Assembly (NCBI GenBank): GCA_021776415.1
Contig: JAJFFY010000049.1
Coordinates: 1-37,451 of the forward strand
From: Hyphococcus sp.
GTDB lineage: Bacteria; Pseudomonadota; Alphaproteobacteria; Caulobacterales; Parvularculaceae
DNA: 37,451 nt
Reading direction: 5' to 3'
Numbering within the stretch: the stretch's first letter is position 1; the number at the start of each line of letters is the position of its first letter. The notes under the pieces were generated by a model that did not search any database, was not told where the DNA came from, and was given only the letters and a program-made list of their open reading frames with translations. Below are positions 33,658-36,427 of this stretch, piece after piece. The translations under genes and the position numbers were made by a program.

Positions 33658-35622
33658 ATGGCGAAAAAAGCGGCGGCGAAAAAACAGGCGGAAGTAGCAG
33701 AACCGGGCGATGGCCCGATCCTCGATCTCACCGACGCCCATGTTAAAAAATTGCTCAAGTCAGCCAAGGCCCGCGGCTATGTCACCTATGACGAGTTGAA
33801 CAAGGTTTTGCCATCCGAAGAAGTCTCTTCGGAAAAAATTGAAGACATCATGGCCCAGCTTTCGGAAATGGGCATCAACGTCGTTGAGAATGAAGACGAC
33901 GACGACGAGACGCCGGAAGCGGCGGCGCCGAAAACAAAAGCGCTGGCGACCAAGGACGCAAAGAAAACCGGCGTCATCACCACCAACACAAGCTCGTCCG
34001 CGGATCGCACCGACGATCCGGTGCGGATGTATCTGCGCGAAATGGGGACGGTGGAGTTGCTGTCGCGCGAGGGCGAGATTGCGATTGCAAAGCGCATCGA
34101 GGCCGGCCGCGAGACCATGATCCGCGCCTTGTGCGAAAGCTCCCTGACCTTTGAGGCGATCACGGTTTGGCGCGATGAGCTGACCGAGGGCCGGGTGTTG
34201 TTGCGCGATATTATCGACCTTGACGCCACCTATGGCGGCGGGCCGGAATCACGCCCCGACATGACCCAGCCCGAAGTCGCCGAGCGGGTTCACAAGGAAG
34301 AGGCGAAAAAGGCCGAAACCGCTGAAGACGATGAGGATGATTTCGACGAAGGCGCGCTGTCGCTTTCGGCGATGGAGGCGGAATTGCGCGATGGCGTGAT
34401 GATGACCTTTGACGACATCTCGTCCGATTACAAAAAGCTCCGCCGGCTCCAGGACATTATGATTGAGGAGCAGCTGAAGGGCGACGATCTCACTGCATCA
34501 CAGACCCGGCGCTTTAGAAAACTCCAGCGTGATATTGTCGACCGCGTGCGCTCGGTGCGGCTTAACAATCAGCGCATCGAGGCGCTTGTCGAGCAGATTT
34601 ACGACATCAACCGGCGGCTGATGGCGCTTGAAGGCAAGCTGGTGCGTCTTGGCGACAGCTACGGCGTTAACCGCCGCGAGTTTCTGGCCGACTATATTGG
34701 CGCCGAGCTCGACCCCGAATGGTTCGCCCGGATATCAGAGAAAACCGGCAAGGGCTGGCAGAATTTTGTCACCAAAGCCGGAGAGCAGGTGTTGTTGATC
34801 CGCGAAGAGATCGGCAATCTGGCGACCGAGACCGGCCTTACCGTCCAGGACTTCCGGCGCATTGTCTCGACCGTGCAAAAAGGCGAGCGCGAGGCGCGCA
34901 TCGCCAAGAAGGAAATGGTCGAGGCCAATCTCCGCCTGGTGATTTCCATCGCCAAAAAATACACCAATCGCGGCTTGCAGTTTCTCGACCTCATTCAGGA
35001 AGGCAATATCGGCCTGATGAAAGCGGTCGATAAGTTTGAATACCGCCGCGGCTATAAATTCTCGACCTATGCGACCTGGTGGATACGCCAGGCGATCACC
35101 CGCTCAATCGCCGATCAGGCGCGCACCATCCGTATTCCGGTGCATATGATTGAGACGATCAACAAAATCGTGCGCACCTCGCGCCAGATGCTGCACGAGA
35201 TTGGTCGCGAGCCGACGCCGGAAGAGCTTTCTGAAAAGCTCTCCATGCCGCTGGAAAAAGTTCGTAAGGTGATGAAAATCGCCAAGGAGCCGATCTCGCT
35301 GGAAACGCCGATTGGCGACGAAGAGGACAGCCATCTCGGCGACTTTATTGAGGACAAAAACACGATCCTGCCGATCGATGCGGCGATCCAGTCAAACCTG
35401 CGCGAGACAACAACGCGGGTTCTGGCAAGCCTGACGCCGCGCGAAGAACGCGTGTTGCGCATGCGCTTCGGCATCGGCATGAACACTGACCACACGCTCG
35501 AAGAGGTCGGCCAGCAATTCTCAGTAACCCGTGAACGCATTCGCCAGATTGAGGCCAAGGCGCTGCGCAAGCTGAAGCACCCGAGCCGCTCGCGGAAGCT
35601 GCGGAGCTTTTTGGATAACTAA
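33658..35622 (+). CDS. rpoD: RNA polymerase primary sigma factor (sigma-70)
   Basis: The housekeeping sigma factor, 654 residues. Region 1.1 is N-terminal ([29 protein letters not shown]). An acidic linker follows, then region 1.2 ([30 protein letters not shown]) and a non-conserved acidic insert. Regions 2.1-2.4 come next ([50 protein letters not shown]), then region 3, and the region 4.2 helix-turn-helix ([30 protein letters not shown]) at the end. It is co-directional with dnaG at a 14-base gap, so probably co-transcribed. A second copy of its last 17 codons plus stop occurs 805 bp downstream, suggesting that the 3' end has been used as an integration site. Confidence 0.98.
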
Positions 35623-35694
35623 GTAAGTAATGTGCCAAATTGACAGCAATTGTATATTCAGTTTATGTTTGAACGTACATTTGGGGCTATAATA

Positions 35695-36303
35695 ATGAAC
35701 AAAATATCAAAAGAGGCTTTTGTTGGCATAGCTGTCATTATGGTTGGTGGGTTGTTTTGGTATTTTCTCAATTCCCGCTTCGATTATTTGGAGAAAGAGG
35801 CGGATCAAGCAAATCAATACCGGTCCGAACATTCCACTGTATTGAGTCAGCATAATGAGCAAATGAATAGCCGCTTTGACCAAGTGTGGGCCGAGTTGGT
35901 TCGGCAAGCCAGAGGTGCCAATAATAAAGGCAGCCCAGTTAATAATGATAGCCCAGATGATTTAGCGCGAAGATTGGCGGTGCTGCAGGCAAGAAATAAT
36001 CTAAAAGAAGATATTCCTGCTTCGTATAGTATTGTGGAGTCAGATGAAGGTTATTCAAAGTTCATTATTAAATACAGTCAAGCGCTCGATGATATCGATC
36101 CCAGCCAGTTTGGAGCAGATAGGGTAATCTTGATTGGAAACGGAGGTGAATCTCCGCTTGGTGTGGTCGCGTTTGGCGCATATATTCAGCCCGATTTAGA
36201 GAATATTTTTTGCGCTTCTGACGAAGAAGAAGATATCAAAACCTGCAATATATTGATGAAATTAAGGTCTGAGCGTGCTGTAGCGCTTCTTGTTGACCAC
36301 TAA
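35695..36303 (+). CDS. Hypothetical protein, N-terminal membrane anchor
   Basis: Not recognised. Starting at the ATG at 35695 it has 202 residues: one hydrophobic segment near the N-terminus (FVGIAVIMVGGLFWYFL), a charged, Gln/Asn-rich stretch that could be a coiled coil (about residues 25-65), and a soluble mixed domain ending in KLRSERAVALLVDH. An in-frame ATG at 35650 would add 15 residues. Base composition is much more AT-rich than in rpoD. It lies entirely between the real rpoD 3' end and its duplicate, so it may be cargo of an integrated element. Confidence 0.6.
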   Translation: MNKISKEAFVGIAVIMVGGLFWYFLNSRFDYLEKEADQANQYRSEHSTVLSQHNEQMNSRFDQVWAELVRQARGANNKGSPVNNDSPDDLARRLAVLQARNNLKEDIPASYSIVESDEGYSKFIIKYSQALDDIDPSQFGADRVILIGNGGESPLGVVAFGAYIQPDLENIFCASDEEEDIKTCNILMKLRSERAVALLVDH

Positions 36304-36370
36304 AATTCTAGCTGGAATTAGGTTCTCAGCGTTTTGGAAATCCGCGCCGTCTACTGGTGGGCTAGAAGTC

Positions 36371-36427
36371 AGCAAGCTCAAGGCCCCAAGGCGGTCACGG
36401 AAGCTTCGGAGTTTTTTGGATAATTAG
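36371..36427 (+). pseudogene. Displaced duplicate of the rpoD 3' end
   Basis: In frame from 36374 the bases read [21 protein letters not shown], against [21 protein letters not shown] at 35569-35622 in rpoD. Across the 54 bases there are 11 differences. Eight are synonymous (including TAA versus TAG) and the other three fall in two codons (His to Ala, Ser to Arg). Similarity stops just upstream of 36372. There is no start codon or preceding sigma sequence, so it is a scar, not a gene. Confidence 0.85.

Follow-up and report, generated by a model that had tools for sequence, protein, structure and literature searches.

A displaced rpoD 3′ end marks an apparent gene addition behind the primary sigma factor gene of an uncultured alphaproteobacterium

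In an uncultured alphaproteobacterium, the 3′ end of rpoD is followed 805 bp downstream by a second, diverged rpoD end. From comparison of the locus with a sister species, the 805-bp unit appears to be an additive insertion, with the second copy marking the displaced resident end of the gene. The window, the whole stretch of 37,451 nucleotides analyzed here, is a complete contig (C44) of a 3.3-Mb metagenome-assembled genome (MAG) with a completeness of 85%, and it was compared with samples of 28 genomes from the genus and 62 from the family. Its nearest named record is an Alphaproteobacteria MAG contig, JAADIH010000223.1, at 91% in the best segment (RpoD residues 14–654).

The rpoD gene (33658–35622, plus strand) encodes a primary sigma factor of 654 amino acids with Pfam Sigma70 regions 1.1, 1.2, ner, 2, 3 and 4. 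Its working 3′ end, copy 1 (35567–35622, plus strand), was delimited by a repeat finder and end comparison. Copy 2, the putatively displaced end (36372–36427, plus strand), lies outside any longer sigma-factor gene, and its right part and flank match the sister species G019. The repeat finder aligned 35567–35624 with 36372–36429 (58 nt, 81% ungapped, spacing 805), bearing out the claim of an earlier note, made from the sequence alone, that a diverged second rpoD 3′ end lies at this distance. The same note read 36374–36427 as an in-frame, RpoD-like C-terminus with 8 of 11 differences synonymous, and our recount over these 54 nt agrees (11 differences, 8 synonymous by codon). Third codon positions hold 9 of the 11 differences over the best-scoring 56 nt, a bias in the aligned sequences suggesting that both ends evolved as coding ends. 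Such coding-type divergence would also be expected if copy 2 were what is left of a sigma-factor paralogue, or of some other gene whose product has a similar C-terminus. Yet the homology is limited to the last 56 nt, with sequence unrelated to rpoD 5′ of copy 2, and in G019 the flank joins rpoD directly, leaving the paralogue reading hardly credible. Copy 1 is not clearly of foreign origin: its last 100 nt are 86–88% identical to those of three sisters, which are 80–89% identical among themselves.

The sister species G019 supplies the empty site that the earlier note had proposed seeking in relatives. Its rpoD is 92% identical to that of the window over 725 nt and shares 644 of the last 700 nt. 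The G019 stop codon adjoins sequence equivalent to window 36428 onward, for 199 nt at 94%, after which the G019 contig ends. G019 lacks the 805-bp unit, so either the unit was inserted in the lineage of the window or G019 lost it precisely; insertion is the simpler account, since the unit's gene occurs in no other of the 62 family genomes. This empty-site evidence comprises one genome and 199 nt of flank, within a data set of MAG contigs and few cases.

The sequence that would have stood behind rpoD before the insertion occupies 36428–37431; its first 199 nt are those matched by G019, and the remainder is presumably of the same origin. It holds a 242-aa ORF on the minus strand (36496–37224) with no Pfam match over the cut-off. 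The contig ends with the first codons of a 96-aa gene, c5 (37432–37451, plus strand). Window positions 37311–37451 are identical over exactly 141 bp to the ends of two contigs from different bins, G000:C3 and G019:C173, both of which run on into genes labelled c5, c2 and c0. This overlap probably reflects a point at which the assemblies of sister species branch. The gene c5 lies behind rpoD in 12 genus genomes, including 11 of the 17 with a c2 match, and if the 141-bp link is right, the variable stretch behind rpoD in the window is about 1.8 kb up to c5, not a large island. A MAG contig whose right end has an exact 141-mer in contigs of two bins could also be a chimera, assembled from two species of the same metagenome. 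The two rpoD ends, however, are 81% alike over 58 nt and therefore offer no shared 141-mer to join there, and second rpoD ends occur in other genomes too; we regard a chimera as most improbable. Elsewhere in the window, the minus strand at 29215–31371 encodes a protein of 718 aa that combines an N-terminal TIR domain with a WD40 propeller and may act in defense or signaling.

The putatively foreign segment itself (35623–36371, plus strand) is absent from G019. G+C is 0.43 in the 805-bp unit versus 0.56–0.60 in 500-bp windows within rpoD (34000–35499), so the AT-rich character described in the earlier note is real. When the 28 genus genomes were searched, the matches listed in other genomes all started at or after window position 36369, none of them before the rpoD-like end. 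The segment carries one orphan ORF (35695–36303, plus strand) of 202 aa from ATG, or 217 aa from a TTG at 35650, with one hydrophobic N-terminal stretch as judged by eye. Pfam gave no match to its product at E values up to 0.1, and a PHROGs resemblance to Rz-like spanins (E 0.0015) is too weak to build on. The ORF is present in 1 of the 62 family genomes, namely its own, where no second copy was found. Among viral contigs, 10 stretches matched the pattern of the insert protein and none encodes a relative. We rejected a plasmid origin (no DNA match to the insert), a donor within the family (none besides its own genome among the 62) and a phage origin (no rpoD end in viral contigs searched with one degenerate exact pattern). 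An RNA element was likewise set aside, with no Rfam match at the gathering threshold in 33000–37451, and there is no tRNA at the unit.

A local origin of the repeat would require an old tandem duplication of the rpoD end and its neighbor, eroded since. A recent form of such an event does exist: in G749 (L262), an 886-bp unit comprising the rpoD end, a ParE-like gene and a neighbor ORF is repeated in tandem, with homology extending at least 120 nt past the stop codon. In the window, by contrast, homology runs out 2 nt beyond the stop, the 202-aa ORF has no second copy in its own genome, and in G019 the unit is missing while the rest of the flank aligns, so further exact deletions would be needed. 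We consider this origin very unlikely. The view that copy 2 is not a recent local duplication but a displaced or imported rpoD end, with its empty site in G019, thus holds.

As a test of chance, we scored the best ungapped 57-nt match of each ORF end within 4 kb downstream. The rpoD end in the window scores 45/57. Control ORFs of at least 120 aa drawn from 295 kb of the window's own genome all fell below 40/57 (205 of 205, top score 36), as did 254 of 255 control ORFs in the rpoD neighborhoods of relatives; the sole exception, at 40/57, consists of two adjoining ORFs of one cluster, which we read as tandem paralogues. Against these controls, the second rpoD end exceeds chance. Across loci, the rpoD end reached at least 40/57 in 4 of 52, compared with the control ORFs of relatives (Fisher 0.003), one of the four being G343, fetched because of its two matches. 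Among the 44 family loci that extend 1.5 kb or more past rpoD, 3 had a second rpoD end; all three belong to the genus, which accounts for 21 of these loci.

Second rpoD ends recur in other genomes. Of 398 order genomes searched, 371 had a match, and in five of these the last 30 residues matched twice, a count read off the genome table by eye (G000, G016, G025, G084 and G343). In the class sample, two matches to the last 23 residues were present in 4 of 356 genomes with a match (385 searched): G000, G474, G553 and G749. Of 80 loci fetched from other alphaproteobacterial records, 77 reached 1 kb or more past rpoD, and these provided one further case, a Rhodopseudomonas sp. MAG (L183). The second match of G084 is absent from its 3.4-kb rpoD contig and that of G553 from the 19 kb downstream of rpoD. 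Named cases aside, the best downstream 57-nt match in the scanned loci was at most 33.

Besides the window, four cases are non-tandem: G016 and G025 in the genus, G343 in the order, and L183. Their cargo is unrelated to one another and to that of the window: an M48 peptidase in G016 (1,867-bp unit), a 969-aa protein with a weak PEP-CTERM match below the cut-off in G025 (3,506 bp), a 113-aa GIY-YIG ORF in G343 (796 bp), and DUF817 and DUF2809 genes in L183 (2,199 bp). In all five, homology stops 0–6 nt past the stop codon. On the left it starts 56, 86, 67, 56 and 172 nt before the gene end (window, G016, G025, G343 and L183, respectively); the window and G343 agree at 56 nt, and the spread from 56 to 172 nt argues against a common attachment site. 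Third positions account for 9 of 11 differences in the window, 10 of 16 in G016, 2 of 7 in G025, 3 of 5 in G343 and 9 of 13 in L183.

Copy 2 of G016 is 86% identical to the rpoD end of G021 and 85% identical to its own. G025 differs from the other cases. With third positions at only 2 of 7, its copy 2 is unlike a coding end; 4 of its 6 changed codons are nonsynonymous, and the terminator common to relatives still lies 3′ of copy 1. The block behind its copy 2 may be the newcomer, and the gene there is the one behind rpoD in G020 (offset 138 versus 136 nt). Two neighboring repeats were also observed. In G016 (L041), a multi-copy element, which from a short motif we take to be IS110-like, begins about 23 nt after copy 2, and the contig stops within it; as the element is common to other contigs and starts at that distance, it looks like a separate neighbor, and we rejected an IS110-type cause. 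In G343 (L121), the GIY-YIG ORF lies next to a repeat of about 270 bp that is found at additional places in the G343 genome.

The region behind rpoD is highly variable among relatives, as the earlier note had anticipated. The distance from rpoD to c2 ranges from 70 to 12,997 bp in 17 genus genomes, and the genes found there in relatives include an esterase, RES, GSDH, MarR, S41 and M48 peptidases, a KAP NTPase, TetR and a beta-lactamase-family protein, among others. Synonymous divergence in the four closest species is 1.93 times expected at codons −40 to −20, and 1.37 in the last 20 codons, where another bin gives 1.38; genus-wide, the last 20 codons give 1.23, below another bin's 1.29. The raised divergence at codons −40 to −20 is compatible with, and not proof of, repeated end replacement. 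The rpoD C-terminus gave 27 matches in phage records and 127 in plasmid records, and the annotated ones among the 20 of each listed are sigma-factor genes.

No recombinase was seen among the proteins scanned in this variable region. Pfam searches found none in either window ORF behind rpoD, and none was seen in the 27 relatives' ORFs scanned (30 chosen of 330), the GIY-YIG ORF of G343 or the three L183 ORFs. The tyrosine recombinase expected to the right was not found in the unit, and the recurrent neighbor gene c5 follows 1.8 kb after rpoD. Phage-integrase domains occur in 28 of 28 genus genomes, but among the matches listed none lies within 20 kb downstream of rpoD. The proposal of an integrating element with its own recombinase and attachment site is not supported, as no recombinase appeared in the scanned proteins and left borders vary. 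The accompanying idea, that an incoming end displaces the original, stands for the displaced or imported end and the empty site, and lacks support for the integrating element. ComEC/Competence family proteins are found in 27 of 28 genus genomes, which says little because E. coli also matches.

The dyad AAGCT-GCGG-AGCTT in the rpoD end (35596–35609), put forward as a structure that recombinases can use, follows from the codons for K-L-R-S-F. We rejected it as a recombinase site because the same pattern is found in 23 of 51 family rpoD ends, including ends without a second copy. It was also rejected as an in-gene terminator, since termination there would come before the stop codon. TTTTTG ends showed no significant association with a missing downstream terminator (Fisher 0.11, 49 ends). 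Family rpoD ends that are written TTTTTGGATAA often hold a small hairpin and T-run within the last codons.

Close inspection of copy 2 points to a breakpoint within it. Compared with G019, 12 of 27 nt differ at −57 to −31 versus 13 of 229 to the right (Fisher 3e-7 at the chosen cut and 9e-5 to 3e-7 over four cuts), where the cuts were picked after viewing the differences and the 11 mismatches downstream were derived from the figure of 94% identity. The p-value overstates the strength of this test, given how variable rpoD ends are in this clade. Close likeness to G019 confined to the right side suggests that a crossover took place inside the repeat. Simple displacement of the whole resident end would not predict this; it would be expected of a site-specific event or of a single crossover with a circle.

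A site-specific event could take the form of a cargo-only satellite at an rpoD attachment site, with an integrase acting in trans from elsewhere in the cell. The breakpoint inside copy 2, the precisely restored reading frame, the cassette-like sizes of the units in the window and G343 (805 and 796 bp, each with 56 nt of left homology) and the genus-wide phage-integrase domains would all suit it. Against this, the matches listed place no integrase within 20 kb downstream of rpoD, left borders differ in the other three cases with no common cargo, coding-type changes are present on the left side of copy 2 too, and the viral contigs lack an rpoD end (one degenerate exact pattern). On this reading the crossover would have fallen in the near-identical last 26–30 nt, with the left of copy 2 as attP and the right as attB. 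We consider such a satellite unlikely.

Judged from these comparisons, foreign DNA carrying its own rpoD end was probably captured through rpoD homology by host recombination, either homology-facilitated illegitimate recombination (HFIR) with one illegitimate joint or a single crossover. A foreign fragment made up of the 3′ end of an rpoD gene plus the next gene would enter the cell, pair with the resident rpoD and be added instead of exchanged. The incoming piece would give the working rpoD its new end, and its far side would be joined at or within the resident end; the latter would be shifted 805 bp downstream and now be decaying. The machinery would be the cell's own recombination (HFIR acting on linear DNA, or a single crossover with a circular molecule), with no element-borne recombinase. 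Orthologous ends, unrelated flanks and cargo, a varying left border and no recombinase seen together fit homology-anchored addition. The borders in the five non-tandem cases are those that orthologous rpoD ends with different neighbors would give if the left joint fell at random. When the HFIR joint was tested, rpoD homology was found at both ends of the unit, with the breakpoint inside copy 2; for this reason we pool HFIR and single crossover as host recombination.

Protein genes known as targets of islands include guaA and rlmH (SCC). As presented in the cited accounts, Islander deals with genomic islands in the 3′ ends of tRNA and tmRNA genes (PMC4383910), and trmE is a further protein-gene integration target (PMC8409611). 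Like islands in gene 3′ ends, the rpoD unit has a regenerated target end at one border, a displaced fragment at the other, far border and an empty site in a relative. Unlike them, the window unit shows no encoded integrase or recombinase, carries one-gene cargo, lies at rpoD and has no fixed crossover point, the same crossover not recurring across independent insertions. Integron cassette arrays and tycheposon-type cargo-only units also add small units beside one site. The rpoD case resembles both in its small units at one site with older content moved outward, and differs in having no integrase seen in the unit and no tRNA.

Closer parallels come from integrase-free hotspots, described in PMC5635113 as fed by recombination in flanking core genes; as stated there, an integrase is encoded in fewer than half of gene-gain hotspots, and 27% are without any mobility protein searched for. 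The rpoD region is like those outlined there in its variable content between conserved genes without mobility genes, and unlike them in that the scar points to addition, not exchange, and names the anchor gene. HFIR, as outlined in PMC3240628, uses one homologous end and yields inserts of about 1 kb with deletions of about 1 kb, mostly with 3–10 bp of microhomology at the other joint. The likeness to that outline is partial and would lie in a single homologous anchor, an insert near 1 kb and a presumably illegitimate joint on the other side. Unlike the rpoD case, which is read from sequence, HFIR in that account usually deletes resident DNA, and this coupling of insertion with deletion speaks against it here. 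An HFIR-type donor sequence was not found in the 62 family genomes, viral contigs or plasmids. Among the titles listed in our literature search, none names rpoD as an integration target, and in the passages of PMC5385486 cited here rpoD serves only as a tree marker.

When the end of an essential gene is displaced, it leaves a scar from which a single addition can be read together with its direction and boundaries, and scars of this kind can be sought at other conserved genes. The repeated additions behind rpoD would be explained by a gene end that is conserved across species and a downstream sequence that is free to vary. More tentatively, and with considerable doubt, the rpoD 3′ end could be a recombinase-independent gene-capture platform on which single-gene units stack like integron cassettes. 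If so, a fragment from any other species that consists of an rpoD end and the next gene could be added before the old end, since this essential end is common to all relatives, and the gene would stay intact. The tail of rpoD may thus be a repeated landing place for new genes, with similar scars in a few other alphaproteobacteria.
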